The notes below the pieces were generated by a model that saw nothing but the letters and a program-made list of their open reading frames with translations, had not been told where the DNA came from and did not search any database. Both the position numbers and the translations under genes were made by a program. A DNA stretch of 64,000 bases from Muscardinus avellanarius. Its lineage: Eukaryota; Chordata; Mammalia; Rodentia; Gliridae. The stretch is from NCBI GenBank assembly GCA_963383645.1, contig OY726559.1, forward strand, positions 126,009,721 to 126,073,720, written 5' to 3'. Below, piece after piece: positions 11,060 through 61,500 of the stretch; within the stretch, counting starts at the first letter, position 1, and every line of letters starts with the position of its first letter.

Positions 11060-11385
11060 TTCTCTAGTGCTGCAAGTTGAACCCAGAAGCATTCTACTGC
11101 TGAGCTACATCCCACCCCTATTTTTAATTCTTTTTTTTCTTTAAAAATTTTTTTATTGGTGCATTATATTCATACAGCATATTGGGGTAAAAAACTTGTG
11201 TGTACAAACATATACTCATCGTTGATTTACCCCTACCCAATTCCCACCCCATCCCCTCCCCGTCCCTCCCTCCCTTGCTTGAAACAGAATCTAAGTTGTT
11301 GAGACTGGCCACGAACCGGTAATCCTCCTGTCTCAGCCTACCAAGTGCTGGGATTACAAGTGTGCACCACCATGCCCGATGATAT
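11060..11385 (-). repeat. Antisense SINE split by an L1 3' end
   Basis: Two parts, 11060-11135 (ID part) and 11273-11385 (B1 part, ending 'gcaccaccatgcccga'), with 137 bp of L1-type sequence between. Confidence 0.72.
11136..11272 (-). mobile_element. Truncated L1-type 3' end, same type as the ORF1-only elements
   Basis: Reading the minus strand gives a G-rich tract, then 'gtatgaatataatgcaccaa' and taaa, matching the 3' ends of the copies at 48740 and 58588. It interrupts an antisense SINE (11060-11135 and 11273-11385). Only the last ~130 bp is present, a 5'-truncated insertion. Confidence 0.7.
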
Positions 11386-23300: not shown

Positions 23301-26300
23301 AGAGCAGCTGTAAAGAGATCACTATTGTATATTAAAATTATATGCTTTAAAATATAGAAGAGCCTGCCTTTCAGAGGTGGTGGTAAATTAATTCCCCCCA
23401 AAACTGATGGGCACTTATTTAAAGGCCTGATAATAGAGACAACACTGATTGTGGACAGGATAGCTAAAGGAAGATGGAATTAATTATTCTAAAGATTTTT
23501 TTTTTTTTTTTTTTGCAGGTCTGGGAATGTAACCCAGGGGCATTTGACCTCCCAGCTATACCCTCTGTCCTATTTTTTATTCTTTATTTTTAAACAGGGT
23601 CTCAATGAGTTGCAGAGGACCTCACTAAGTAGCTGCTGAGCTGTCCTCAAACAGCGATCCTCCTATCTCAGCCTCCTGAATGCTGAGATTGCAAGCCTGC
23701 ACCATCGCATCCGGCTTTATTTCTCTTCTTAAATAATGATTTTCATTGAGGGAAGAGAGGCAGAGGATGAATAGGGTATGAAAAGATTTACTATACACAT
23801 GAGTGCATAGAAACAAATAAAAAAGAAAGTGTACAGAGCCAGGCATGGTGGTGCACGCTTGTAATCCCCGTTCTTGGGAGGCTGAGAGAGGAGGATCGCG
23901 CAGGTTTGAAGCCAGCCTCAGCTACTTAGTGAGGCTCTCAGCAACTTAGTGAGATCCTGTTTCCAAATAAAGTATAAAATAGGTCTGGGAATGTAGCCAG
24001 CGGGTAGGAAAGTCCCTGGGTTCCATCCCTAGTACCCCCCCCCCCACACACAAAGTGTATAGCAAAGTGTCTAGGTTTTCCATACACATAAGAAAGGTTT
24101 TCTATATACATAAGTACAATAAATTCACTTCCCAAGAAAAGCAATTCTAATAAATAGAAGTACAAGTAGGACAAGCAAACTTTTACAAGTTGGGATGTCT
24201 AAGTGAGCATGTATCCTGAGAGCTAGAAGGGCCTGACTCTCCCTTCCCAGTAGTTTGCTCCCTCTGCACTTAAGACGTCCACCCTCTGGCCCAGCCTCCT
24301 TTGTCTAGGTGGGAAGACCGGTGCTACTGGCACTGTATGTAATTGAGATGAAAATGACTAAAATGGATAGATCACGCGGGCCAGGTGACGCGGCAATAAT
24401 CAAAAGTCCTGAAAATTAATTTAAATATAGTCAATATTTAAAGATAAAGCAATCATTTTAAATAGTTTTTGCAATTCTACTAGAAAGTAAATTTTCTTAC
24501 TTTAGTGCTGAAATTTTCTCTTTTAATTCTTCTGAGGTAATTTCTTCTAGCAGGAAAAGCTTTGAAGTAAATGCATCAATATGCCCTAAAATAAAATATC
24601 AAACTTAAAAAGAAGAGCAATTTTCATATTTAAAAAACAAAAAAGCCCAACAAGTTATGCAGTCTCCTTAGAGTTTTTTTATAAAAATTTAATGACTATA
24701 TAGAATTTTACATTTAAAAGAAGAAATGTATATTTCATTAAGTCTATGAAGAAAAGCTATATTTTAAAATGACATAAAATTCAAACTTTCACAAAAATGT
24801 ATTCATTCTAAAATATTTGCTGAATATAAAAAAGTTCACACTTGTTCAGACATATAAAATATTATCCAAGCCTAAAATTTAAGAATAACAAATGTTTAAA
24901 TATTGGTATTTCCAGTTCTTTTAAAGTTGCTTTTTATGGCTTTAAAAAAAAAACACTATGCATCCATTATCAAAGTAAGTACTTACAAATTAAATTTATA
25001 GACTGGGCATACTCAATATATCTTAAGATAAAAATAAGATTATTAAAATATGCTTATTTTAAAGCACACCATTAAATTTCCCATAGTTAAAGCAGATTTA
25101 AGCAGTCTGATGAAATCTTTTTATTTGATGCACTGTAATTATACACATAGTGAAGTTCAGAGTGATAAATACATACATGCACACAGCTTTCTGTCTTTTT
25201 TTTTTTTTTTTTTTTCAGTACTGGGAATTGAACCCAGGGCCTTAGAGATGCTAAGCAAGTGCTCTACCACTGTGCTATATTTCCAGCCCTTTTTATTTTG
25301 AAATGAAGTCTGGCTAAATTGCCTAAGCAAGCCTCAAAATTATGATCCTCTTGCTTCAGCTTTCTGAGTGGCTGGGATTACAAGCCTGCACCACCACACT
25401 CAAAAAGTCATACTTTTTTGCAAACATGATGAAAATCTAGAACTTCAAAAAACAAAACAGAATGTTCTCAAAATCATTCTTCTATTTTAAAAAGTAATGT
25501 GTATATATTTCTTTTGGGGGGGATACTGGGGATTGACACCATGGGCATTTTATCTCCAAGCTTATAATCCCAGCCCTTTTTTATTTTTATGTTTTTTTCT
25601 TTTTGAAACAGGGTCTTGTTATGTTGCTGAGATTGTCCTCAAACCTGCAATCCTAATACTCATCCTAATACTGGGATTACAAGCACACACCACCAAGCCT
25701 AGCTGTAATGTGTACATTATAAAACAAAACAGGTTGAGACACAAAACAGAGGCATTGTAGTATACCGAAAAAGAGCAATGCAAAAGTAATCCTGAGTCAA
25801 ATGTTATACAGAAAAGTCAGAATAAAAGTCATGCTATTATACTATGGTAAAAAAAAAAAAAAAATCACTTAGCACCAAAGGAACATTCACCAGGGCTGAG
25901 GAGCACAGTTCTGGGTTTACTTTTTTTGTGTGTGTGTGGTACTCGAGGGTAGAACCCAAGGGCTTTCTACCTCCGGGCTATGCTATACCCTCAGCCCTAT
26001 TTTATAATTTATTTGGAAAGAGGGTCTCACTAAGTTGCTGAGAGCCTCACTGAGTAGCTGAGGCTGGCTTGGAAACTGTGTGATCATCCTCTCTCAGCCT
26101 CCCAAGTACTAGGATTACAAGTGTGCGCCACCCCGCCTGGCTGGATTTACTTTTTTAACTCTAAAAGTTGGTTGTCAAAACAAATTACCAGGCAAGGTAT
26201 TACCAATCATTGAGACCAAAAAAAAAAAAAAAATGCATACATCTCATTTTTAAATCCAGGCCACTTTATTTTCAGTTATTTTATTCTCAGAGAATTTAAT

Positions 26301-33745: not shown

Positions 33746-35527
33746 TGTATGTATGTATATACACACCCACACTTATTTTGGGGGACTTTCTTTGATAAGA
33801 CTATCATATCTACAAAACTGAGTCCTATATTTGGTTTTAATTTCTATACGTATTCTACTGCCATCTCCAGGAAGCCATGGCAAAGAAAGGCCCAAATATT
33901 TTGTTTCCATTTAACTCCAAAATTAAAGTCAAAACTTATAAGCAAGGTTGTTCTACAGCAAAAATTAAATTCACTATTTCCTTTGATAGGTGGCTCCTAT
34001 TCTATTCTCCCCAAGTGCAAGCTTTTCTTGTTCTATTTTCACACAGGACTGTACATACATTCCTAAGTAGATATTTCATAGCTAGTATTTTCTCATCAAT
34101 ACCAATAAGTGCTTTCTATTCTTCCCAAATTTGCACCTTCAAGATTCTATTTTCTGGCCCTAGAATGCCAATGTACAATGTAATTGGGGGGGGGGGGCTG
34201 AGGTTGAACCCAGAGCATTCTAACTTTGAGCTACACCCCCAGCCCTATTTTATTCTGAAACAGGGTCTCACTAAGTGGTGGAGGGCCTCACTAAATTGCA
34301 GAGGCTGGCTGCAAACCTGTGATCCTCATGTCTTAGCCTCTCAAGTATTGGAATTACAAGTATATGACACCATGCCTGGCTCAGTATAAATTTTAAACAA
34401 ATGGATCTAAAAATTGTAACCATTTTAGAGTACAGTACTTAGAATATGTGATTAACTCTGACAGTAAGAGTATCAAACAGTTTAAAGTTACTGGGTCTGG
34501 ATTTCATAGTTATATAGAGAACTCAGTAAATCCCAGCTTTATTTTCTGGTCCAAATTAGCGTCTTCATTTCATTCCATCTTCCGAAACTAGCTACTATTT
34601 AAGTTCTCTGAAATGCAGTTCTTATTTAGCAGAGTTTTGATGAAGAAATATACATGATACTGGGAACTAAAATCTCCATTTCCAGAACTGAAGAGTCAAA
34701 AGAACAAAGTGTTGGGAATGTAACTCAGTGGCACTGCACTTGCCACCATGGGTGAGAGACCCTGAGATCTATCTCTAGTCCCCCAAACATTTCATGCAAA
34801 ACCATATGATTTTTGAAACTGTAAGTTTGAACCAATGATGAAAACTAAATTATGAGAATTGAAAAGTTAATATTTACTTGCCATCTTCCCTCTACTTAAC
34901 AAGAAAACTATGAAGCAAAAGTTCTACCAAGTCCACTGTATTCTAATGGATAAAGCATACATCCTAGATCTGGCTTTGGTCTTTTGCATGCAAGTCAGTC
35001 CCTCAAATTGTTATCATTAGTTGTGTGGGAAGATTAGCATTTTTCCTTTTTTTCCAAAACCCTAGTTATTCTTTAAAGTCTAACACAAATTCTTTATTCA
35101 TCTCATCCGTATCCCAAAACATGCTGACATTCTAAGTGGTCGATGGCGATTTTTATTGGGTGATGGTTTAGATAACAAGATATTAAAACTTAAAAACATT
35201 TATTGGTGCATTGTAGTCATTTATTGTAACAGAGCACAAGATGTTAGAGGCATACATGCACACATCACTCATTTAGCCCTTCCCCAACTCCCTACCCCAT
35301 CCCTCCTTCTCAAATGTTTGGCTTAGTCATTGACTTTGATGTTTGTGAATGTACATCATGTACATTAGCGAATTTCCCTCTTTCTTCCTTCCATCCCCCT
35401 CAGTTAGGTCACCCTAGCTTCCACATATTAGATAAGTATATTCTAACAAATATACACAACAAAAAATTTTTTAAGAAAAAGTAAAGATACTTTAATACTA
35501 TAAATACTCAATTATAATATAGAAGCT

Positions 35528-35558
<31 letters not shown>

Positions 35559-38500
35559 TTTTTACAAAATTCAGTAGTCACATAAAAAGTACAAGCTAAT
35601 CTGAGAGAAATCCAAATATCAAATATAGAAAACTTTTGGGCATGATGACACATGCCTGTAATCACAGTACTTGGGAGACTGTGAAAGCAAGATCATAAGT
35701 TTGAGGCCAGTCTCAGCAACCTGGTGAAACCCTAAGCAACTTAGTGAGACTCTGTTTCAAAATAAAAAATGGGCTGGAGTGTAATTTGAAGGCAGAATGC
35801 ACCTAGGCTCAATCCCCAATACCAAAAGAAAATTTAGAAAACTGATAAAAGAAATAATTTCTCAAATTATAACTTCCTTTCTTTTTCTTTTTCTTTTTTT
35901 GGTGGTACTGGGGTTCCTGGAAGCCCTTCTACCTCTGGGCTACACTCCCAGACCTATTTTATTCTTTTTTATTTTTGGAAACAGGGTCTCTTAAGCCAGC
36001 ACAGCTGGCTTCGAACCTGCACGATACTCCTGTCTCTGTCTCCCAAGTGCGGGGAATACAAGTGTGTGCCACCACGCCTGGTTATAGCTTATTTTTTAAA
36101 CCAAGAAAAATGTTTATATCAAACCTCAAAAGAAAAATGGTGGGAGGAGAAGAGATTTGGCTTAACAATCCTGAAAACATTACAAATGTGTTCTAGCTGG
36201 GTGTGGTGACGCACGCATGTAATCCCCGCGCTTGGGAGGCGGAGACAGGAGGATCTCGCAGGTTCGAAGCCAGCCACGCTGGCTTAAGAGACCCTGTTTC
36301 CAAAAAATATATATATAAAATAGGTCTGGGAGTGTAGCCCGGAGGTAGAAAGGCTTCCAGGAACCCCAGTACCACCAAAAAAAAAAAAAAAAAATGTGTT
36401 CTAATGTTCATATTTCTAAAACAAATCAGGAAGAGCCCCAAAGTAAGACAAAGGGATTTGTCTATCATAATGGAAATACAAATTCACAGAGAAAATAGAA
36501 ATGAATGTGCCAATCTAGGTAAAATCTCTGATGGTGTAGTTTTTTATAGTTTGTAAGTTCCATGCAAAGACATTACTGACATTAATGACTATTATATAAT
36601 CATTAAAGACCTACTTTTATTAAATTGGCCCCAATATTTTACTAAAATAAGTTTCTCTTGCAAATACTGTAAGAGTAATCAACAATTTAAAATTAAACTT
36701 CACAACAACGCATATTAAATATTAACTCATTATCCACCTATGCTACGACATCTTAACTTTCTAATAACTACTTACTCTTCTGATTTTCTTCCGCTTTTTA
36801 GAGCGAGGTCTTGTCTCAATCCTCTGGACACTGCAACGCACAAGTAACAACAAGTCTTGCAGGCTGAATAGCTTATAAACAAAATTTCCTTCTTGAGGAG
36901 CTACATATTCAGATGTATCTTCAACATAGTCCTGAAGTTCATATGGCAATCCTTTATAAAAAGTTTAAAAAGTAATGTTATTCCTAATCTAAGCACAGCT
37001 GAAAAGTACATTTGCACTTATTTAAACAAAATTATTAAAAACCTACAGTCCTACATGAAGTATAAACATAAGATTGATCAATGTTTATGATTATTTTTGA
37101 TACATTCCCCTTCATCAGTTTGGCAAACCACATCACCTATCGCCATAAACCTAAGTTATAAAAACCCAGACGTGTATAGGTACATCTCTGAAGAGGGTAT
37201 TCTGAAACCTAAAATGCTAATTGAGACACTGATGAATAGGTAAACACTACAAAACAGGCTAAAACAGAGAATATGAAAGAATGAGGGAGAAAAAGCTAAG
37301 AAAACAGGACAGGTAAAACACTAAGTTTTTTATAAACACTTACGTCCTTTTGGCTTCTGAAATGCAGAAGGCCATGCAGATTTTGGCCAGCTAGGAGCAT
37401 CTGAAGGAGCAGAGGGTTGCTCAGAAACAAGCAGCTGCTTAGAATTTTCTAAATTCATTGAGGGTAATTCTGGTACTTTTTTGGAAATTGGTTTTAAGAG
37501 TTCATCTTGCATTTTTAAAATTTCTCCAACTGGATCAAATTTTTTATATACTCGTTTGATTGGTTTTTTCAGGACACAAGACTCCTCAGGACTACAAGCA
37601 GTAGTAGTCTGGTTTCCTATAGAAGCCTCTTCTGAGGGAGTATTTGGAGTTGCTGGTTTAGAACTTAAACTTGAAGCCACCACAGTGGCCTTTCCATTGG
37701 GACTATCTTTATGCTCTATATCGATGATTAGACAGTCCTCATCTGTGTCACTGCTGCAAGGGACTGCCTTTTCAGTTTTAGCTACGTCTGGTGCAGGAGG
37801 CTTTTCCTTTGAAGTGTCTACGCTCTCAAGAACATCTGGTCTTTCATCATCGGCATGTACCACATCTGTAGCCATATCATTTCCACTAGTGTTTTCAATT
37901 TCCTTAGAACTTTCTAACTGTAAAGCATCAGCTGTTTTCAAGTCATTATCCTGCATCACAGTCTTTTCAGAACTGGATACCTTCTCACTACTTGGTACAA
38001 GTCCCTGGTCATCCTTATTTTTGCACTCTTCAGAGCCACTTTCCATGCCAGTGACCAGCTGTTTCTCCTTTTGTAATTGTTTCATCAGAATCTGAGACAA
38101 ACTACTAGAATTAGCAGAAACGTCTGTTACAGTCGGTGCCACCAATGTAGCTGCTGCTTTGGGGGCTGCAAGAGTATCTGTCATGATGGGTACTGTGGAA
38201 ATATTCTCTGGACTTGGTGATTTTGATGGTTCAGTGGTGGTTACTCCAAAAGTTTCAAGTTCTGTGACATCATCATCAAAATCCAGGTCCAAATTTTCAT
38301 GAGTCTCAATTTTTCGGCACTCATTAACTTCACCGGAAGTCTTGAAAGAAAATATATTGGCAAATTATTAGTAAAAATGTTATACCATGCCTCACCTATT
38401 TCTTAATGTCCCTATCTCTTACATACATAGTTCATCTTTTTAAAATACAAAGAAAAGTCTAATGGCTCTAAAAGCCTCTTGTTTAAAAGAGGACAACAAG

Positions 38501-41500
38501 AGCCGGGCATAGTGGTGCATGCTTGTAATCCATGCTCTTGGGAGGCTGAGACAGGAGGATCGCGAAGGTTCCAAGCCAGCCTCAGTTACTTAGTGAGGCT
38601 CTCAGCAACTTAGTGAGACCCTGTTTCCAAATAAAATATAAAACAGGTCTGAGAGTGTAGCCCAGTAGCCCTGAGGTAGAAAAGCCCCTGGGTTCCACCC
38701 CCAGTACAACCAAAAAAAAAAAAAAAAAAAAGAGAACAACAAACTACTAGTAACTATTTAACCTCATTTTCCCACTGAAATGTTCACAAAAACAAATTTC
38801 TCAAGTTGTAACAGCACTGGAAAATAGCGCATGGTAAACTACTACATCCCAGAAGGATTTTTAACTTTAAAACAAAAGAAAGAAGACAGACATGGTGGCA
38901 CATGTTTGTAATCCCAGGACTTGGGAAGCTGAGACAGGAGGATCGCGCAGGTTTGAAGCCAGCCTCAGCTACTTAGTGAGACTTTCAGCAACTTAGTGAG
39001 ACCCTGTTTCCAAATAAAATATAAAATAGGTCTGGGAGTGTAGCCTGGAGGTAGAAAGCCCCTTCCATCCCCAAGACCAGAAAAGAAAAGAAAAAAGATA
39101 TTCCATCATGAAGAAGTAGAGTCAAATAGAAGGCAGTATATTTTCATTTCTGACACCTTTGTATACTTTTACAGGGACACTTGGACTTAGCTGAACAGGA
39201 GAAAAGTCTTTCTGACGCTGTGAGGAAGCTGCCTTCTAATGTAGCCATAGAATTGTCTCCTCTCTGATGAATAGGTTCCTAAAGTAATTGATACTGCCCG
39301 TTTGGGGTGGGGGTTCTGGAACAAATAAAGAATGCAAAAATTTTCGCTGCATCTTTCTGTGTATTCGCTTAAGGAAAGTAGATTTCCATGGGGGTGCTGA
39401 GTAATTCTTTTTCTGAAAAGAAGTAGTAAACCAAATAAGTTTGGGAACCTCTGTTAGTAGATCCCTAACATCTACTCAGGGAAAATAATTCTGAGTAATA
39501 TATGATGGGGCAGAAAAAGACAGAAAAGATTGGTTGCATTGTATTCTGGGACATGAAGTCACAAGGTTATAGTTTTTCATGTACCATTTTGGTAATGCAA
39601 AAGCTTCACACAGTTTAATTTACTTAGTAACCCACTGTCCTCACCCAACTAGACAAACAAGTACCAGAGGACTGTTCCTCGATCTAGGAGAGCACTTTAA
39701 GAAATACCATAGACATTTGGATGTGGAATATGTACACCACTAGCCTTCAAGTTTAGGATGTGAAAGATTTTAATAGCAATTTGTGAGTAAGAAAGATCAA
39801 TATGTTCTTTAACCTCTCAGAATCTAAAATTACTTATTTTTATAACAGTTAAGAAGGTTACTTCTTAGATATGTTCTAAAGAATTAATGAGACGTTGTAT
39901 ATAAAAAAGTTTCTTAAGAATAACAAAAGTAGCTGAGTGTGGTGGCTTATACCTGTAATCCCAGTAATTAAAAGGCTAAGACAGGAGAACTGCAGGTGCA
40001 AGGTCAGCCTCAGAAACTTACAAAGAACTTGTTTCAAAATAAAAAGTTAAAATTTAAGGGCTGGGGGGATAGCTTGGAGATATAATGCCTCTGGGTTCGA
40101 TTCCCAGTAACACACGCACACAAAAAGAACAAAAGTATGTCCTTTGAAGGAAAATGGATGAAACTGGAGAATATTATGCTATGTGAGACCAGCCAATCTC
40201 AGAAAGTTAAGGGATGTATGTTTTCTCTCATAAATGAAAACAGAAAACGAAAGGGAACTGTAAACAATGTGGAGAGAGACCTATAAACAGTAGAAGAGGG
40301 TTGAGAAGGGGAAAAGGAAGGATTAAGAGATAGTCCAAATAATATCATGGCAATATGAAAGAGTTTCTACTCTTTCACTCACATATATGGGGAGTGGGGG
40401 GCAAGAGCAGGACAGGATGCAGAGCAAACTACACCAAGAGCTATGTGCATGTATGTTTGTATCACACTGACCCCACTATGATGTATAACTGCAATGCACC
40501 AATAAAGTCAAAATTGGATAGTGCCTGGCACATAGTTAAATAGCCTCTCAATAAATGAATGGTCTTATAAAAAGTACCAGATTTTGTAAAATAAATAAAT
40601 GAAGTTAAACTCTAATGATACTTACATAAGGTATTCTTACATGAAAAGCTTAAAAACAAAACAAGAATACAACATCAAAAAATAAAAAGAGAAGGAACAG
40701 TAATGTTAATATAAGACAGCAGAATTCAATGGAAAAAAACATTAGACAAAAAAGGAGGAATGCCATACAAAAAATAGATGAAATCTGTGATGAACAAATA
40801 ATGATGAACAACTGTGACATGTCAAATAACAAGATCAAAATATCTAGTCAAACTGAAAAAGAAAATTTGACAGAAACAGAAGCGTACTTGTCAATGATGT
40901 ATTTTGTCTAAGTAAAACAGGGATATAGAAAGTATGAATATTAATTAAATGTTTGAGACAAACATATCTAAACAAGTAAAAACATGTATTAAAGACTACA
41001 AAGATACACCAATCTCTCCTAAGAACACAAGGGGCATTTCCAAAAATGGACTTTAAGTTAATATACAAAGCAAATATCGATATAGCACAAAGTAGAATCT
41101 GCTAAAGTCTTACTCTCTTTTAAGAAGTAAATAACATTAGAAATAATTAAGAAAAGTTTAAATGATATACCTGAACACCTAGAAGTTAAAAAGCATTCCA
41201 AACTGCTAGATAAAAGGATAACTCAAAATGCTATTTGCATCCCAGTACTTGGGAGACTGAGACAGGAATATCAGCTATTTAGTCAGGCCCTCCGCAATTT
41301 AGTGAGACCCTGTTTCAAAATAAAGAATAAAAAATAGGGCTGGGGGTGTATCTCAGAGTTAGAATGTCCAAGTTTAATCCCTAGTACCACACACACAAAA
41401 AAGGAAAAAATAGAAAGAAAGGAAGAATTAAAAAAATAGAACTGGGGGTGTAACTTGGAGGCAGAATAACACTAGGTTCAAACCCTAGTTATGCAAAAAT

Positions 41501-46700: not shown

Positions 46701-49700
46701 AATCTTTTAAAGAAAGCTCTTTGAAGGGTTTCACGGAATTTTCCCTGTCACTTTAAATTCCACCCTCTCTTTTTATGAAGCACAAATCATAATGGGAAAT
46801 AGTGGAAACTCTTAAATATCTTCACCCACATTTCTGATATGTTTGGAATAAATTTCCTTTAAAAGTTACCTTGTGGCCAGGTGTGGCGCACGCTTATAAT
46901 CCCAGCATTCAGGAGGCGAAGACTGGATTAAGGATTAAGGTTTGCAGACAGCCTCAGTTACTTAGCGAGGCCTTTCGCAACTCAGTGAGACCCTATTTCA
47001 AACAATATAAAGACTAAAAACATAGGACCAGGAGTGTAGCTTGGAGGTAAAATGCCCTTGGGTTCCATCCCCAGTACTGCAAAAATATGAAAAATAAAAA
47101 TAAAAATGAAAAAATAAAAGTTATCTTGTTACTGTTCAAAATTTAAATGTAAAATAATATTTTTGTGAAACATAATTTTTTTGTGAGTGTGTGTGTGGTG
47201 CTAGGGATTGAACTGAGGGGCATTCTACCTCTGATCTATACTCCCAGCCTTTTTTATTTCTTATTTGGAAAGAGAGTCTTGCTGAGTTGCTGACACCATA
47301 AGTTGCTGAGGCTGGCTTTCAAACCTGTGATTCTACTGTCTCAGCCTCCCAAATACTGGGATTACATGTGTGCACCTCCATGATGTTAAAAAAAAAAAAA
47401 AAAAAGCTTATACTGTCATACAATAAACCTTACCAATGCAAGAAGGGTTTTTTCTAACTTTAATCCCATCTCTGTTCTGAATGGAAAAAATCCCAGTAAG
47501 CTGGTGACTTCATGGAGAGTATAAAATTCTGGATACTTTTTAACTTGTTCAATGCAAGCTCTTAAAATTTGCTAGGAAACAAAAATTTTTTAAAAATTCA
47601 TTTGTATTATAATTCTCTAACAATACAACAAAAGTATTTTTGTTACACATGACTGTTCACTGCAAAAGTTAGCTTTGTTTCATTAATCAGGCTTCTAACA
47701 TTCTACACATATATTTCCGAACTGACTTAATCTGTTACTTTTCATAACAAAATTTTAACCTAATTTCCTAAAATACTGGTAATTAATAATATTAAAATTA
47801 GCAATCTTATTAAATTTAAAATTAGAGAAGATATATCTATATTTAAGAAACCACGAAAGAAATAAAATCACATGAAAATTTCAACACGATATACTCCAAT
47901 AATGCATTAATATCAATAAGTTTAATACTCTGAAATAATAAAGTAGTTGTATCTCATTTGAATACACAATCTAAAAAATAAAATAAGCAATGTTAAAACT
48001 AATTCAAATGCTACAGTACTTAGAATTTACTTTTCTCTAAAGTGTCCAAATATAATAACGTATCAGGAAATGGAATCAGGAAATATTCATAGCTTTACCC
48101 AAGAAGAATATATGTCACTTGTGATAAAATGTAAATAACCTGAGAAGGACAGCCACTGGTAGGGGGAAGCACTTATTATTAAAATATAGACATATGTTAT
48201 TTTCTAAAATATATTTTTCTTCTCTCAATAAACCGTTATATGAAACTTTTAGAATGTATTTTAGATCACAAAAGCTCTTAACAATAAGCATATTTTTATA
48301 TATCTAAATCCCCTCTCCAGTCAGGTGTGGTGGCACACGCTTGTAATCCCTGCGCTTGGGAGGCAGAGATGGGAGGATCTCGCAGGTTCAAAGACAGTGG
48401 CGCTGTCTTAAGAGACCCTGTTTCCAAATACAAATATAAAATAGGTCTGGGAATGTAGCCCGGAGGTAGAAGGGCTTTCAGGAACCCCAGTAAAACCCCC
48501 AATATAAAAAAAACTAAATCTTCTCTCCTTTCAAATATTTGTTTGTCAAATGTGTATAAATAACGTACTCAAATTGATCTTTCTGTTTAAAGTCTCACTC
48601 CCACTCCTCTCCTTCTCTCAGCCCCTTCTCCCAGCTATCTTCATTACTTTTCTCCCTTCACCTATATTTTCCAACAATAATTCTGATATTTAATTCCAGA
48701 TATCACTCACACTGTGGGCTAATAATAAAAAGTTCTCTTGGGGACTTCCAGGAAGATGGCGACAGAGAAAAGCGGGGCTTAAGAGCCCCGCTAACAACCA
48801 ATCTCCATTACCACAAAATCAGCGCCTTTCATAGCCAGAAAACACCATCACCAGAAAAACAAAAAAATCACCAGGCTCCAGAGAGAAAGCGGACTGAAAA
48901 CAGAGCTCAGAGCCACAGAGGAGATACACCGGCCTCACACCCGAGGACGCGGCAGCAGCGCCATACTGCCAGCGGCAGCGGCGAGTTCACCAGACGGCTA
49001 CAGCAAGCCGAGGTAGGCCGCTGCGGAACAGCCAGGTGGGATCTTTCGGTGCAGGGAGCATCTAAAGCTCCCAGTGTCTGAGCTCAGCACACACTGCAGG
49101 GACTCAGAGTGGAACTCAAAACCAAGAAAAAATACGCCAGCCTCACGGCCGAGGGCGTAACAGCGGCGCCATATTGCCACCAGTGGCAGCAGCAGCGAAT
49201 TCACTGAGTCCAGTAGCTACATCTGCATACTCAAGAACAGTGAGTCAAATCGCGGGCCACAGAGGAGAAATCCAAGTACTGTACTCCCTGGGACTTGACC
49301 CAGTGGGGGAGTGGCGGTGGCAGAGATATCACACCATAGGAGAACGTCCAACCTGGCACCCCCCATAGTCTAAAGCAGCCTCTATCGACTCCCTGGGTCG
49401 GAGACTCTGTGATACAACCCAGTAAAGGAGTAGTGGGGACTGAGATACCACAGACTCACGATCCAGAGCACCTTAAGTGAAGTCGCAGTGACCCAAGGGA
49501 AGACCAAGAGAAGGCATGAAATCATGGGAAAGATAAATAACAATGGAGCAATGAATGCCCACAACCCCACAACATCAGAACCCAATAAAACAGAAAATCA
49601 GGGATTTCTAGAAAATCAAATCAGGAAAATAACTGTAGAAATAATAGAGGTGCTTCGAAAAGAATTCAGAGAGAGCCAAAAAAAGATAAAGGATGCAATT

Positions 49701-52700
49701 AATGAAGTAAAGGCCTCAATTCAAAGCACAAACAACCGATTAGACCACATGGAGAACAGAATCTCGCTCTTAGACGATGATCATTCCAAAAATGAACGCA
49801 TAGTTTCTAATCTAGAAAAAAATATCCGACAGCAGGAATCTGACATTGAACAAATATGGGCCCATTTTAAGAGAGCTAACCTAAGAATAATTGGAATAGA
49901 GGAGGGAAAAGAAAGTGAAACCAAAGGGATCAACAATCTCTTCAAGGAAGTAATAGCAGAAAATTTTCCAAACATAGAGCAAGAGGTTGATACACAGGTC
50001 CAGGAAACTTATAGAACTCCCTTTAGACAGGATCGGAGAAGAGAATCCCCACGCCACATAATTGTCAAAATGACCAATGTGGAAGCCAAGCAGAGAATCT
50101 TAAAGGCAACAAAAACAAAGGGCCAACTGACATTCAGAGGCAAACCAATTAGAATCACTCCAGACTTCCCAAACCAAGTCATGAGAGCCAGAAGGGCTTG
50201 GAGTAACATATTCCAAACTCTGAAAGAAAACAATTTCCAGCCAAAAATTTCCTACCCAGCAAAACTTTCTATCAAATTAGATGGAGAAATAAGAAGCTTT
50301 CATGACAAACAGAAACTGAAGGAATTTATGTCTTCAAAATCAGCACTAGAGAAAATACTGAAAGAGATTAACTACAAAGAAGAAATAGGTAACACACACC
50401 AGAACCAGAGAAACAAGATTTTCCATCCAACAGACAACTAAGATTGGTTATCTGTGGAGATTCATTATTTATGTTAGTCTTTTACCTATCTCTAAATTGT
50501 ATTGTTTGCCTTTATTGTTGTTAATTTTTAGGATGTCTAGTTGGAATATTAATATACCTTCAGATATAGCATTTGGAAATATTTTATCCCATGCTATTAG
50601 TAACTTTTAACTCTGTTTACATTGTCTTTGGATATACAATATTTTTTTTATTTTTTAGGGAGATTCTATACTCTTCTGTTGCCTGTGCCATAGAAATCAT
50701 ATCCAAGAAATCACTGCCAATCTCAATGTTGAGAAGTTTTATGACCCAGATTTTCTTCTAAAAGTTTATAGTCTTAAGATTTATATTTAGGTCTTTTATC
50801 TATTTTGAGTTAATATTTGTATATGGGATTAGGTAAGGGTCCAATTTTATTCTTTTCCATGTAATTATTATTTTTCTACAATATTTAGTTAAAAGATTAT
50901 TATTTCCACCACCAAATGTTCGTGGAAACCTTGTCAAAAATAACTTGACAATATAGGAAAGAATTTAGCTAAAGGCTTTTATTTAACTCCAATGGTTTAT
51001 ATATCTGCCTTTAGAACAGTACTACACTTTCAATTATTGTAGCTTTATATAGTTTGAAATCAGAAAATATATATCTTTTAGCTTTGTTCTTTTTCAAGAT
51101 CGTTTTGGGTATCTAGAGTCCATTTTCCATATTAGGATAGATTTTTTTTTCTGAAAAATAAATATATAAATATATGATAGTCTCACCTAAAAAAATAGAA
51201 AAAAAATATTCTCTGGTAAGAAAGAAAGCAAAAAGAAATATTGAAATGTTATCTTTAAGTCACCAAAAGCTTGGTATCAGACAAATGAAACTGTTATGTG
51301 AAATTATCATTTTTAATTTTGGATAAAGTGCTATAATATAGATGTCAACCACTAAGCCAAGCATGGGAAGGAGGGATGGGGAGAGATTGGGGTGGGGATC
51401 GGGTGGGGCTGACTGGGCGATGTGTGCATGTATGTCAACAAAAGTTTGTATTCCACTATGATGTATGAATACAGTACACCAATAAAATAAATAAATAAAA
51501 GTAAAAATAAATAAATAAAATAAAATAAAAAGTTCTCTTAAAAACCCTCATCAACTCCAAATGCAAAATATCTTTGATCCTTATTTATCCTTAGTTATCT
51601 TCCACCTCTAATGTTCCCTCCTATGGTAGTCTTCACAAGAATTTGAACATACAAAGGAAAGCAATACATAAAAATTATGTGACAAAAAGATTATTCTGGT
51701 TAAGTGATTTAGGCAAATAATTCTTGATAAAACTGTGCTAGATGGTCTACTTCTTTTAACTAAATTTCAATCAATTCAGTACTTTATGGCAAAAGAAAGG
51801 GTCAAAGGAAAATCCAAGACAGTTTTTCACTTGTACTCTGATAGATTTCACGTTATGTAAAGTACAGCGGTCACCCTTTATCTGAGGTTTCACTTTCCAC
51901 AGTTTTAGTTACCTGCTGTAACCAAAGTCAGAGAATTAACAATTTGAAAAAAACTCCAGAAATAAGCAATTCATAAGCTTTAAATTGTACATTGTTTTAA
52001 GTAGCATAGTAAAATCGAATGCCACCCTGTTACAGATGGGAATAAGCCCCTTGTCTAATATATCCACACAGTATATGCTACCTGCCCACTAGGCACTCAG
52101 CAGCTATCTCAGTTATCAGACCCAGTGTCCTGGTATCGCAGCAGACAGTCAAGAGAAGCATAACGTACATCGTTCACCTTACTCCAGCTCATCATGCAGG
52201 TGTTGGATCATTTTCCATCATCAAAAGAAGGGTGAGGACAACAGAGAAAGGTGTTTTAAGTGTGTGTGAGACCATAACTTTCATTACATTAAATTGATAA
52301 AGTTGTTCTATTCTACTATTGTTAACTGTTGTAAATCTTACTCTGTGCCTAATTTATAAATTTATTGTAGGCATTTATGTACAGGAAAAACATAGTATGT
52401 GTAGGATTCTGCATAATATGCACCTTCTGCCACCCACTGGGAGTCTGAGAACATATTCTCCATGAATGGTGGGGAGACTACTAAGTGTAGTTGAATCATT
52501 AAAAATACATGAATATACTATAGTACATAATTTTTAGATATTAATATTTCTACATAAAACTTGTTCTCTAAATTGATAATACTGAAGACTCCCTACGCTT
52601 TGTGGAATTATCACAGACTTTATAAAGCATATGCTATTGTCTACCACTTGGCAATTTACAAGAAATATGATTTATTTTACCTCTGTGAAGAGACGGGCAT

Positions 52701-54424: not shown

Positions 54425-55799
54425 CTGGAAAAAAAAAATACAATTTACAAATATGTGCTTTTCACATGAAGATTACTATCATGAAACTTCATGAATTTCA
54501 ATCACAAGGAGAATATATCATGATTAAGAAAGTCAATTCTGGATTATTATCTGCCACCTGCATTTTGATGTTTAGTCATTTAGTATAGATTAAGTATTTT
54601 GTAGGAAAGAAACACATTGAAAACTTACCTTCAACTACCTGATGAGACATACTTACTACACTAGTTATTCTATCTAGATGGAAGTTTTCCCCCTTTATTG
54701 AAAAGGGGGAAATCATTCTTGCCAGTTATATTCATGTTTACATTTTATTACTCTAGTTGTTTTTTCATGCTTATATTTTTCAGTAAGTTCTACCAGTTAA
54801 TATAGTGAACAAGATAAAAGAACAAGATAAAAACAAGGTCAGAAGCTTGAAGTTGATGAGTTCACCAAGATTGTACATTTTCTGGTTTGCTTTGCTTAGC
54901 TCAAGAATAAAAAAGAAATTTCCAACAATTGTATGGAAGCAGAAGAGGTTTTAGAAAAGTTGTATAATCCGCTATAACTCAGGGAAATGTCTCTATGCTT
55001 CTTATGGATTCAAAATAAAAATCCTGGCCTATTTATAATAAATTCACTAGAAGAAAATATATTAATTAGCTAGAAATCCTATCAGATTTTTTTATAAAGT
55101 GCTACCTCCAATCTTAAAAAAGTGGCCTTATCATCTCGATTAAGGCAAATGACCATAAATTTCTTATCTTGTTCATGTTTCAATCCTTACTATTCAGTTA
55201 CTGTTATCTCAATTCTCAAAAAGAGGATTTAGAATTTCAACAAAAACCACGTTTTGTCCTCTGCCACTCTAATTTCCACCAGTCATTGTTCCTATGACTT
55301 AGCTCCAAATAAAATAATCGACAGAGAAAGAAAAACCAATAAGATGGATGTCTGTTGATTCACTCTATATTCCTCCATGCATTAATATTTGCTGATGTGT
55401 ACATGTGCTAGCCTGTGCTATGTTCTAGAGGACACAAGGAAGGCTCAACATTGTATAATCCCCGCTCTCCAGACCTTAAGATCTAGTGGGTCAGAGAAGT
55501 ATATGGGGAAGAAAGAAAAGTAAGTATGTTTATCAATACACTGCTACTATGGAGATCTGAGATTTGCAAATTGAAAGTACCAAATAGTTAGCTAAGAAGA
55601 GTGCTAAGGATATAAGGATCAGGGATTAAGAGGGAAAAAGGAAGGGAGGAGACATATGCAGAGTAGTAGTTCTCAATCCTGGGTGTTAATTCCTTCAGAG
55701 CATTTTGGAAAACTGTAGGTACAGGTGATTGTTACAAAAGAGAAGTTTAAAAGCATTTAGAGGTGAGGAATATTAGAGGCCTACATTGTGTGACACTCT
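54425..55799. other. ICE2 intron, unique sequence with old debris
   Basis: 55370-55560 recalls an old L2/L3-type repeat ('gctagcctgtgctatgttct'). No ICE2 exon in phase found. Confidence 0.45.
55655..55760 (+). mobile_element. Possible MER5-like hAT fragment
   Basis: 'gtagttctcaatcctgggtg' followed by 'tacaggtgattgttac' resembles the start of MER5. Short and diverged. Confidence 0.35.
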
Positions 55800-56019
55800 T
55801 CTCTTTGTTTCCGGTCTGGGGTTCTGGTCTGGGGATGGAACTCGGAGGTATTCGACCTCCAAGATACAACCCCTGCCTTATTTTTTATTCTTTATCTTGA
55901 GACCCTCCTCTAAGTTGTGGAGGGTCTCACTAAGTACCCAAGGCTGTCTGCAAACCACAATCCTCTGGTCTCAGCCTCCTGAATGCTAGGATTGTAAGTA
56001 TGAGCCGTCACGCCTGGCA
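55800..56019 (-). repeat. B1-dID SINE, ID-intact subfamily, antisense
   Basis: Flanks share gtgtgacactctt / gtgtgatactctt. A 5-prime 'gtctggggttctg' duplication is visible at 55815-55840. Confidence 0.87.
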
Positions 56020-56051
56020 GTGTGTGATACTCTTAAAGGTCCCTTTTCTCA

Positions 56052-56203
56052 GCTAGGTGTGGTAGAACACACTGAAACCCCAGTACAGTTCATGGCCAGC
56101 CTCAGCTACTTAGTGAGACCCTGTTTTAAATAAAGAATAGGGCTAGGGGATGGAGCTTAGAGGTAGAATACCCCTGGGTTCAATCCCCAGTATCGCAACA
56201 AAA

Positions 56204-56240
<37 letters not shown>

Positions 56241-56255
56241 GAAAAGAAAAGAAGG
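56052..56255 (+). repeat. B1-dID SINE, sense, internally deleted, (AAAAG)n tail
   Basis: B1 half shortened ('cagtacagttcatggccagc'). The tail turns into about seven AAAAG units at 56219-56254. Flanks share 'ggtcccttttc'. Confidence 0.87.
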
Positions 56256-56572
56256 TCCCTTTTCATTTATCACATACCCTAGTCTGATATTACTTAACAT
56301 TGCATTCTGCTCCCTTTTGTCTATGATTCTTTTATGGTTCTTTTCCCTTCTTAGTTCTCTTAAATACAACCTTGTTTTTCTTTTACATCACTTAACTACT
56401 CCAGCTTTCTTGACCTTACTCATTTTAACTGGTGCATCTAATCACATCATTATATCCCCTACTGTAATGATAACTATGTATTTACACATTAAATGAATAT
56501 TATTATGCAAATTATTTCCCTTTTACTTTACATTTATATATTCAGGATATATTATTTTAAGAAATAATGTCT

Positions 56573-56780
56573 ACAGTGGTTGCACATGGTTATAATCCCA
56601 GTTCTTGGGAGACTGAGAAAGGAGGATCACAGGCTTGAGGAAAATCTCAGTAAGTAGTGAGACTCTGGTTAACCTAGAAGACCCTGTTTCATAATAAAAA
56701 TAAAATAGGGCTGGGAGGTGCAGCTCAGAGGTAGAATGCCCTGGGTTCAATCCCCTGTATCACCCCCCCACCAAAAATAA
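56573..56780 (+). repeat. B1-dID SINE, sense
   Basis: 'cagtggttgcacatggttat' to 'caatcccctgtatcacc'. Confidence 0.8.
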
Positions 56781-58233
56781 TAATATCTACAATAATTATT
56801 AGCTATTAATTTCATTTAAGGCTAACAAAGGAGGTCTTTTATTTCTTACAAAATTTTTTATAAAAAAAGTGTAAAGGTTTTGGCCTGATTTGATCTACTA
56901 ATTTAGATATGCATCTAGACAAAGAGTGAAGTAAGCCCTATCCAAAACCAGCACTGATACGTTTTAAATCAACTTTAAAAGACTAGCTAGAATATAGTAA
57001 AAATTCCAAAACTTGAAAACAGTATTTGAGTTTAGCCCCTCCCAAATAAAGTAGACTATTCAAAACCACTCTCTTGGAGCTAAACTAATAATAGAAAACT
57101 AATCAAAAGAGCTGATTAGTTAACTGAAAAGAATTTTGGAAATTAAAATTAGGATGCTTAGCTTGGCTCTAAAAACAATACAGGTGAAAAAGACATACTT
57201 AAAGTTTCTCCAATAACTGTATAAAAATAAGTACATTTTAGGTTAACAAAATGAATATTAACTGCTGATCTTGGGAGAAATGTATTACAGCAAATTGATT
57301 TCTCACTAGAAAATGTCTTGAGAGCTATTCAAACTTAACAGTACTGTGTCCGCAACTCTTAACAATACTGCTTCACAGCTGTCTCTCTGAATAGGAGAAC
57401 ATGTCTGTCCTGTGTCACAAACTGGCAAATTTAATTAAGCTGCTGCAGCAACAAGATGCTGACTCAGATGTGCCAGAGTAGGAATGTCAAGAAATTCTAG
57501 CAGTTTAAATTGGCTACATTCAGCAAAGAATGAAATGGCAGCATATCAAGATCATTTCCAAGTGCAGCGCTGTCAAAATCTTCATCAGAGTGCAAAGCAA
57601 GAACACCTGGTAGGGTGCCCTATCCACATTACAGCAGTACATTCTATTTCAGCTGATGGTCTGAAGTTTCCTACACTTGTTTTGTCAACCACCCATTCTC
57701 TTTTACTTCAATTTCTATTAAAAAAAAAAGGCAGAATCTAAAACTGTTAAGTTTTCTATCTTTGAGTCCACTGGTTTTGTGGCTTCTTTAAAAGTAGTAC
57801 TTGGAATGGTACTTCTGGCCTCCACCAAGTCTGCCTGTATCTTCTGTTTGATTTTTTTATATTAAATAGGTTAAAATTTCACTTTTTTCTATTTAAAGCT
57901 ATTTTCACCTTGTTCGATTTATAACTCAGTTCAAATAATTGTTACTAAAATCTCTAATTGTAAATAAAGAAAAATATGAGACCAGCCTTAGCAACTTATA
58001 TAAAAGCAGGTGTTTAAAGTGGTTATTTCTACATAAATGGCTTATAGGATATTTTAGTTTTCTTGCTTTTCCTTAAATTTTCCAACTATTCTATAACAAA
58101 TGTAATTTATTGTTGATGCTTCACAGAAGAGTAACACCATACTACCTTTTGTATTGTTTATATGTAAGAACACTATTTTAGTGGTCTTTTCATTTAATAA
58201 ATATGTATGGAGTACAGAGATTGAGTAAAAAGC
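56781..58233. other. ICE2 intron, unique sequence
   Basis: No repeat recognised over about 1.4 kb. The 85-codon open frame at 57484-57741 has no known match and is not flanked by convincing splice sites. Confidence 0.45.
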
Positions 58234-58239
58234 CTTTTT

Positions 58240-58428
58240 TTTCCCTCCAGGTACTAGTGTAGAACCCAGGGGCTTTTCTACCTCCAGGTTATACTCTCAG
58301 ACCTATTTTATACTTTATTTGGAAACAGGGCCTCACTAAGTAGCTGAGGCTGGCTTCAAACCTTTGTGATCCTCCTGTCTCAGCCTCCCAAACTCTGAGA
58401 TTACAAGTATGCGCCACCATGCCCAGCA
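58240..58428 (-). repeat. B1-dID SINE, antisense
   Basis: Flanks share agtaaaaagcc (58227 and 58429 areas). First of three stacked insertions at this site. Confidence 0.88.
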
Positions 58429-58587
58429 GTAAAAAGCCTTTTTGTAGAAGCTGCGTGTGGTGGCGCATGCTTGTAATCTCAGCATTTGAAGCTAAGACAA
58501 GAAGGATTGTTGTTCGAAGACAACCTCAGCTACTTAATGAGGTCCTTTGCATCTTAGTGGGACCCTATTTCAAAATAAAGAATAAAA

Positions 58588-59376
58588 GGACTTCCGGGAA
58601 GATGGCGACTGAGAAAAGCGGGGCTTAAGAGCCCCGCTAACAACTAATCTCCATTACCACAAAATCAGCGCCTTTCATAGCCAGAAAACACCATCACCAG
58701 AGAAACAAAAAAAATCACCAGGCTCCAGAGAGAAAGCAGACTGAGAACAGAGCTCAGAGCCACAGAGGAGATACACCGGCCTCACACCCGAGACCGCGGC
58801 AGCAGCGCCATACTGCCGGCGGCAGTGGCGACTTCACCGGACAGCTACAGCAAGCCGAGGTGAGCCGCTGCGGAACAGCCAGGCGGGATTTCTCGCCGCA
58901 GGTAAAATCTAAAGCTCCCAGTGGCTGAGTTCAGCACACGCTGCAGGGATTAAGAGTGGAAATCAAGAAGAAATACGCCAGCCTCACGGCCGAGGGCATA
59001 GCAGCAGCGCCATATTGCCACCGGCGGCAGCAGCAGCGAATTCACTGAGTCCAGTACAGCTACATCTGTGTACTCAAGAACAGTGAGTCAAATTGCGGGC
59101 CACAGAGGAGAAATCCCAGTACTGTACTCCCTGGGACTTGACCCAGTGGGGGAGTGGCGGTGGCAGAGATATCACACCATAGAAGAACGTGAAACCTGGC
59201 ACCCCCCCACAGTCTAAAGCAGCCTCTATCGACTCTCTGGGTCGGAGACTCTGTGATACAAGCCAGTAAAGGAGTAGTGGGGTCTGAGATACTACAGACT
59301 CGAGATCCAGAACACCTTAAGTGAAGTCATAGTGACCCAAGGGAAGAACCCAGAGAAGGCACAAACTTCCCAAATC
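58588..59376 (+). promoter_or_regulatory. L1-type 5' UTR/promoter region of copy 2
   Basis: Homologous to 48740-49523 but visibly more diverged than the ORF1 3' part. It keeps the YY1-like motif, the hairpin and the two internally repeated modules. Confidence 0.7.
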
Positions 59377-60294
59377 ATGGGAAAGATGAATAATACTGGA
59401 GCAATGAATGTCCACAACCCCACAACATCAGAACCCGATAAAACAGAAAATCAGGGATTTCTAGAAGATCAAATCAGGAAAATAACTGTAGAAATAATAG
59501 AGGTGCTTCAAAAAGAACTCAGAGAGAGCCAAAAAGAGATAAAGGATGCAATTAATGAAGTAAAGGCCTCAATTCAAAGCACAAACAACCGATTAGACCA
59601 CATGGAGAACAGAATCTCGCTCTTAGAAGATGATCATTACAAAAATGAACGCATAGTTTCTAATCTAGGAAAAAATATCCGACAGCAGGAATCTGACATT
59701 GAACAAATATGGGCCCATTTTAAGAGAGCTAACCTAAGAATAATTGGAATAGAGGAGGGAAAAGAAAGTGAAACCAAAGGGATCAACAATCTCTTCAAGG
59801 AAGTAATAGCAGAAAATTTTCCAAACATAGAGCAAGAGGTTGATACACAGGTCCAGGAAACTTATAGAACTCCCTTTAGACAGGATCGGAGAAGAGAATC
59901 CCCACGCCACATAATTGTCAAAATGACCAATGTGGAAGCCAAGCAGAGAATCTTAAAGGCAACAAAAACAAAGGGCCAACTGACATTCAGAGGCAAACCA
60001 ATTAGAATCACTCCAGACTTCCCAAACCAAGTCATGAGAGCCAGAAGGGCTTGGAGTAACATATTCCAAACTCTGAAAGAAAACAATTTCCAGCCAAAAA
60101 TTTCCTACCCAGCAAAACTTTCTATCAAATTAGATGGAGAAATAAGAAGCTTCCATGACAAACAGAAACTGAAGGAATTTATGTCTTCAAAATCAGCACT
60201 AGAGAAAATACTGAAAGAGATTAACTACAAAGAAGAAATAGGTAACACACACCAGAACCAGAGAAACAAGATTTTCCATCCAACAGACAACTAA
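59377..60294 (+). CDS. L1 ORF1p-like RNA-binding protein, copy 2, intact (305 aa)
   Basis: Same family and domain order as the copy 1 protein, with RLDHME at residues 72-77. ATG at 59377 has the same strong context. Compared with copy 1 there are 11 amino-acid differences, all in residues 1-98 (positions 4, 7, 12, 21, 31, 45, 48, 54, 84, 88, 98); residues 99-305 are identical. The out-of-frame upstream ATG of copy 1 is absent here. No frameshift or stop. Confidence 0.92.
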   Translation: MGKMNNTGAMNVHNPTTSEPDKTENQGFLEDQIRKITVEIIEVLQKELRESQKEIKDAINEVKASIQSTNNRLDHMENRISLLEDDHYKNERIVSNLGKNIRQQESDIEQIWAHFKRANLRIIGIEEGKESETKGINNLFKEVIAENFPNIEQEVDTQVQETYRTPFRQDRRRESPRHIIVKMTNVEAKQRILKATKTKGQLTFRGKPIRITPDFPNQVMRARRAWSNIFQTLKENNFQPKISYPAKLSIKLDGEIRSFHDKQKLKEFMSSKSALEKILKEINYKEEIGNTHQNQRNKIFHPTDN

Positions 60295-61500
60295 GATTGG
60301 TTATCTGTGGAGATTCATTATTTATGTTAGTCTTTTACCTATCTCTAAATTGTATTGTTTGCCTTTATTGTTGTTAATTTTTAGGATTTCTAGTTGGAAT
60401 ATTAATATACCTTCAGATATAGCATTTGGAAATATTTTATCCCATGCTATTAGTAACTATTAACTCTGTTTACATTGTCTTTGGATATACAATTTTTTTT
60501 TTTATTTTTTAGGGAGTTTGTATACTCTTCTGTTGCCTGTGCCATTGAAATCATATCCAAGAAATCACTGCCAATTCCAGTGTTGTGAGGTTTTATGACC
60601 CAGATTTTCTCCTAAAAGTTTATAGTCTTAAGATTTATATTTAGGTCTTTTATCTATTTTGAGTTAATATTTGTATATGGGATTAGGTAAGGGTCCAACT
60701 TTATTCTTTTCCATGTAATTATTATGTTTCAACAATATTTAGTTAAAAGATTATTATTTCCACCACCAAATGTTCATGGAAACCTTGTCAAAAATAACTT
60801 GACAATATAGGGAAGAATTTATCTCTAGGCTTGTATTTAACTCCAATGGTTTATATATCTGCCTTTAGAATAGTACTACACTGTTTCAATTATTGTAGCT
60901 TTATATGGTTTGAAATCAGAAAATATATATCTTCTAGCTTTGTTCTTTTTCAAGATCGTTTTGGGTATCTAGAGTCCATTTTCCATATTAGGATTGATTT
61001 TTTTTTCTGAAAAATAAATATATAAATATATAATAGTTTCACCTAAAAAAATAGAAAAAAATATTCTCTGGTAAGAAAGAAAGTAAAAAGAAATATTGAA
61101 ATGTTATCTTTAAGTCACCAAAAGCTTGGTATCAGACAAATGAAACTGTTATGTGAGATTATCATTTTTAATTTGGGATAAATTGCTATAATACTAGATG
61201 TCAACCACTAAGCCAAGCATGGGAGGGAGGGATGGGGAGAGAATGGGGTGGGGTTTGGGTGGGGGCTGACTGGGCAATGTATGCATGTATGTCTACAAAA
61301 GTTTGTATCCCACTATGATGTATGAATACAGTGCACCAATAAAAATAAATAAATAAATAAAATAAAATTACAAATAAAAAATAAATAAATAAATAAAAAA
61401 TAAAGAATAAAAAATAGGGTTGGGGGTGTAGCTCAGAAGTAGAATGCCCCTGGATTCTATCCCCAGTACCACACACCAAAAAAAGGCCTTTTTGTAGAAG

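Follow-up and report, generated by a model that had tools for sequence, protein, structure and literature searches.

The window, i.e., the whole stretch of 64,000 nucleotides analysed here, carries two elements on the plus strand (48740-51523 and 58588-61396), which are laid out in the same way and are about 95% identical along their length. The pair of ORF1-bearing elements with matching layout claimed in an earlier note on this DNA is therefore present. In both copies a 5' UTR of about 785 bp is followed by an ORF1 of 305 codons, about 0.9 kb of further sequence, an L1-type 3' end and an A-rich tail. The junctions between these parts are common to both copies, and one 1-base indel is observed (at 51339).

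The 5' UTR of element 1 (48740-49523, plus strand) starts GGGGACTTCCAGGAAGATGGCGAC, and we take AAGATGGC in it to be a YY1-type L1 5' end. The 5' UTR of element 2 (58588-59376, plus strand) has a GC content of 0.54 and contains 34 CpG. An imperfect duplication inside the 5' UTR of element 1 (48903-48990 and 49112-49204, 72%) has a counterpart in element 2; it is possible that this is a monomer-like promoter repeat.

ORF1 occupies 49524-50441 in element 1 and 59377-60294 in element 2, in both cases on the plus strand. As had been claimed, each is intact with 305 codons and contains the RRM-like and C-terminal domains of L1 ORF1, PF02994 (E 2.8e-26) and PF17490 (E about 8e-22) according to Pfam. 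The best match of element 2 ORF1 among solved proteins is human L1 ORF1p (2yko, E 6.4e-58), with 98 of 227 aligned columns identical. An ORF1 derived from L1, which is expected of a HAL1 element, is thus found in both copies by the two domains and in element 2 also by the 2yko match. A scan of viral contigs with an ORF1 pattern returned six stretches that fitted the pattern and no relatives.

The sequence behind ORF1 is largely a decayed L1 ORF2 segment in the antisense orientation. It corresponds to the C-terminal third of ORF2 and occupies 50442-51140 of the minus strand in element 1 (by tblastn, with approximate borders) and 60295-60995 of the minus strand in element 2 (with outer borders drawn by eye). 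In element 2, the minus strand at 60297-61046 matches human ORF2p 855-1081 (E 2.2e-23, matched core 60312-60971), and 75 of 218 aligned residues are identical if stops are read through. The element 1 counterpart was found as three minus-strand tblastn pieces (50444-51190) using the element 2 read-through as the query, the last part of which extends past the human ORF2p match. Judged by eye, the antisense homology begins at most a few bases from the ORF1 stop codon. Element 2 has 19 in-frame stops in this segment, and 16 of them are common to element 1. Pfam recognized no ORF2 family in the antisense read-through; its single match was unrelated (E 0.089) and below its cut-off.

The claim that ORF2 is absent is thus correct for coding sequence, but it overlooks this decayed antisense segment. 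As in HAL1, no coding ORF2 is found, and only the antisense piece and the linker described below lie between ORF1 and the 3' end; the sense ORF2 with endonuclease and reverse transcriptase that characterizes an autonomous L1 is missing. There is no ORF2-like frame among the open reading frames of at least 150 aa in the window, and tblastn of the window gave no additional ORF1 or ORF2 relative at useful E-values and no helper L1.

The antisense segment is followed by an AT-rich linker with approximate borders, at 51141-51343 in element 1 and at 60996-61199 in element 2 (GC 0.21 over 60996-61196). The linker has no relatives within the window besides this pair. The terminal 3' UTR of element 1 (51344-51523, plus strand) is L1-type and includes a G-rich purine tract, AATAAA signals and the A-rich tail; that of element 2, together with its A-rich tail, occupies 61200-61396 of the plus strand and is also L1-type. 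A G-rich purine tract is likewise seen in the 3' UTR of element 2 (61200-61340), a feature known from many L1 3' UTRs. For 61200-61345 the predicted RNA fold is weaker than that of shuffled sequences (z 1.96), with 197 out of 200 shuffles folding equally well or better.

The L1-type 3' end claimed for both elements is supported by its resemblance to other 3' ends in the window, which are presumably L1 3' ends as well. The terminal 3' UTR of about 140 bp matches 11123-11281 (minus strand, 75% over 160 columns) and 35199-35334 (minus strand, 70%), and shorter matches are found at 25119-25185 (minus strand) and 40473-40506 (plus strand). The 3' end reported at 11136 is real, but it is no sign of a third family member, because the end at 35199-35334 is similar too and such an end is not diagnostic. 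Near the latter end, at 35414-35436, lies a short stretch that we take to resemble the end of L1 ORF2; apart from it, inspection by eye of the translations upstream of the other 3' ends revealed no clear ORF2. To judge from these sequences, the same type of 3' UTR may occur in ORF2-bearing L1s as well.

Elsewhere in the window, a 320-aa open reading frame rich in acidic and serine residues is found on the minus strand (37330-38292). It has no Pfam match at E 0.1 and may represent either a large host-gene exon or a processed copy. A scan of the window for RNA families gave no matches.

Target sites and flanks

Element 1 is flanked by AATAAAAAGTTCTCTT at 48724-48739 and 51524-51539, and element 2 by the A-rich AAAATAAAGAATAAAA at 58572-58587 and 61397-61412 (all on the plus strand). 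Each pair is an exact 16-bp match and the two sequences are different, so that the perfect 16-bp target-site duplication claimed for each element is borne out; in the case of element 1, three of the 16 bases could derive from the tail. The A tail and target-site duplications known from HAL1 are thus found here as A-rich tails and 16-bp duplications.

The A-rich duplication of element 2 is backed by a related repeat (46883-47077), since this repeat matches the flanks on both sides (58460-58587 to the left, 61397-61469 to the right), and the two matches overlap by 16 bases, the length of the duplication. The repeat is uninterrupted across the position equivalent to the insertion point. Element 2 was inserted in the A-rich middle of its host repeat, and 46883-47077 provides a paralogous picture of the empty site. 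We presume that the host repeat is a dimeric SINE of the B1/ID type and that the B1/ID-like repeats around element 2 fit a rodent host.

The 2-kb flanks of the two elements have in common only repeat-like pieces (at most 222 aligned columns, 68-84% identity), none of which has a corresponding position at the borders of the two elements. The different duplications and the unrelated flanks imply two separate insertions rather than one duplicated block. A segmental duplication of one element is ruled out by the same observations, as the flanks share scattered repeats only.

Origin and mobilisation of the composite

Alignment of the copies up to 51480 gives 2732 ungapped sites, of which 108 differ. 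These differences are unevenly placed: 105 of 1908 sites (5.5%) differ outside 49817-50640, and only three of 824 inside it. Outside this tract and without CpG sites, 82 of 1804 sites differ (4.5%). At a pairwise divergence of 4.5-5.5% the insertions are not very recent, unless their sources differed.

The common junctions and the 16 common stops imply one composite behind both copies, which has moved as a unit at least once. The earlier claim of recent mobility is therefore sustained insofar as a HAL1-like, ORF1-only unit has retrotransposed at least once, but "recent" can be understood only in a relative sense, given the 5.5% outside the tract. An earlier common source and two moves make the simpler account, and one of the copies could itself be the founder.

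We believe that these are probably two members of a HAL1-like, non-autonomous composite L1 derivative mobilised in trans. In such a composite, an L1-type 5' UTR and ORF1 would run straight into an old inverted ORF2 piece, behind which come the AT-rich linker and a terminal L1-type 3' UTR with a polyadenylation signal. ORF2 would have been lost at the source locus when a rearrangement placed ORF1 next to DNA containing an inverted L1 fossil and a sense L1 3' end. RNA polymerase II would then transcribe the composite from its L1 5' UTR; the resulting RNA could serve as the message for its own ORF1p, and the ORF2p of an intact L1 elsewhere in the genome would reverse-transcribe it. Mobilisation in trans by L1 ORF2p is suggested by the missing ORF2 combined with the L1-type marks of insertion. 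The window contains two copies of the composite, and the family is accordingly demonstrated no further than these two.

It is possible, though on balance unlikely, that no fossil was captured and that the inversion occurred inside an L1 at the birth of the composite, the ORF1-only lineage having outlived the decay of the segment. By eye, at most a few bases separate the start of the segment from the ORF1 stop codon, the 3' UTR is L1-type, and one internal rearrangement could leave such borders; the sharing of 16 of the 19 stops by both copies is also in line with this. Nevertheless, the common decay is heavy. In a rough simulation of stop gain (400 runs per level, the ORF1 of the window serving as the proxy coding sequence), no more than 0.5% of runs accumulated at least 16 stops in 226 codons at any level up to 0.3 substitutions per site, and 4% did so at 0.5; the divergence between the two copies is only about 5%. 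For the latter reason the capture of an old L1 fossil is simpler than a long-lived composite lineage, and an inversion at birth also leaves the AT-rich linker without explanation.

Another proposal is that an ordinary ORF2-bearing L1 was rearranged in a single private event, perhaps with one copy made from the other and with no wider family. Just two copies are visible and one of them could be the founder, which agrees with this proposal. We nonetheless regard it as unlikely: both copies have target-site duplications, their divergence outside the tract is 5.5%, and the decayed segment is present in each, which suggests that their common source is older.

The near-identical tract and selection on ORF1

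The tract of near-identity spans 49817-50640 in element 1 and, from the comparison of both copies, 59670-60494 in element 2 (plus strand in each). The longest runs with zero, one and three differences are 483, 718 and 824 sites, and none of 20000 shuffles reaches any of them; the test assumes an even rate along the element, and the limits of the tract were picked after inspection of the data. The tract covers ORF1 codons 99-305 and about 200 bp of noncoding sequence past the stop codon, where 2 of 199 sites differ; beyond it, 22 of 498 differ.

The tract is best read as the probable result of gene conversion between the like-oriented copies, which would have homogenised about 0.7-0.8 kb over most of ORF1, either between the copies or between their sources; an exchange between source loci would be one alternative. 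By this proposal the two ORF1s are near-identical over the tract because conversion homogenised it. Most of the ORF1 identity between the copies looks like the outcome of copying from one to the other, not of selection. If it is a conversion tract, the two intact ORF1s count for the most part as a single observation and offer no independent evidence of selection.

An assembly artefact, in which reads of one copy filled the other, seems quite unlikely. The copies begin 9.8 kb apart in the same orientation with 95% identity, a situation in which a short-read assembly can fail; still, in the remainder of their length the assembly keeps the two elements apart, each with differences and flanks of its own.

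One could also propose that gene conversion is needless, and that purifying selection, through a benefit of ORF1p in cis, held both ORF1s open and near-identical. Both are intact and the tract does span codons 99-305. Codons 1-98 are free of indels where 1.8 are expected (P 0.16), and when divergence of the whole ORF1 by 49 substitutions was simulated, only 15% of pairs were stop-free. Synonymous change is low in codons 1-98 too, with none of 27 fourfold sites differing.

The extension of near-identity about 200 bp beyond the stop codon, and its end there, speak against this explanation, since selection on the protein fails for the noncoding part of the tract. The one codon difference inside the tract is synonymous and none of its 61 fourfold sites differ; this is not decisive, because 0/27 and 0/61 are alike and fourfold sites therefore cannot tell conversion apart from a low rate of synonymous change. 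Among codons 1-98, 12 differ, 11 by nonsynonymous and one by synonymous change. In neutral simulations with 12 substitutions in these codons, at most one synonymous codon arose in 18% of runs and no stop in 66%. On balance, purifying selection is an improbable cause of the near-identity.

The earlier note concluded from the two intact ORF1s that ORF1 had been kept open. We do not retain this conclusion: codons 99-305 lie in the conversion-like tract and the pattern in codons 1-98 readily arises in neutral simulation. As proof of selection, the pair of intact frames is undone by the near-identical tract and the neutral simulations. The ORF1 data from two copies fit selection or neutrality and neither show nor exclude the former.

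Known elements and biological meaning

The defining paper on HAL1 is reportedly that of Bao and Jurka in 2010, with an earlier one by Smit in 1999. Among the papers listed by literature searches, with Bao and Jurka 2010 outside their scope, there was none that we recognized as describing this composite. HAL1 elements are described as encoding ORF1p only and as having several origins in mammals (PMC5753468), and as having A tails, target-site duplications and a dependence on L1 (PMC5322556). The present composite resembles them, according to these descriptions, in being derived from L1, in having ORF1 without a coding ORF2, an A tail and target-site duplications, and in its expected dependence on L1 ORF2p (PMC5753468, PMC5322556). 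As far as the same descriptions go, it may differ in the inverted decayed ORF2 between ORF1 and the 3' end.

HAL1 as a described mammalian kind, to which the earlier note appealed, is indeed in print: a review names the rat as a genome where it was active and states that this activity was acquired (PMC8535693). By that description rat HAL1, reported as active in a rodent genome, is similar to the present composite in being an ORF1-only L1 derivative (PMC8535693). Precedents for the proposed mobilisation are truncated L1 RNAs bearing ORF1, described as mobile in culture, and HAL1 insertions (PMC4859970), together with an Alu transcript driven by Pol II, for which both ORF1p and ORF2p are reported to be needed in trans (PMC2666806).

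An inverted L1 piece followed by a sense 3' end is also what is described for twin-primed (5'-inverted) L1 insertions (PMC4859970). In the present composite, by contrast, which occupies two sites, the inverted piece comes after a sense 5' UTR and ORF1. The hallmark of twin priming is a single insertion with its 5' part inverted, whereas the inverted segment here is internal and common to two insertions.

SVA and LAVA are built from parts other than those of the present composite, and to our knowledge they encode no ORF1p. The likeness consists in their being composite non-autonomous RNAs mobilised in trans by L1, as they are described in PMC7353768.

It is tempting to combine the inversion at birth with a lineage that persisted through the decay of the ORF2 piece while ORF1 alone was kept intact; we consider this combination very improbable. 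If true, the element would be a long-lived L1 parasite with an ORF1p that aids its own RNA in cis, and this RNA, antisense to L1 ORF2 mRNA, might even have aided it in joining the particles of helper L1s.

Elements of the HAL1-like kind are natural tests of ORF1p helping its own RNA. The present pair carries a warning in this respect, as gene conversion can make nearby intact frames alike and mimic selection. The noncoding inverted ORF2 beside ORF1 is a built-in neutral clock for selection on ORF1 across many copies, and comparison of the two would make such selection measurable in an element unable to make ORF2p.
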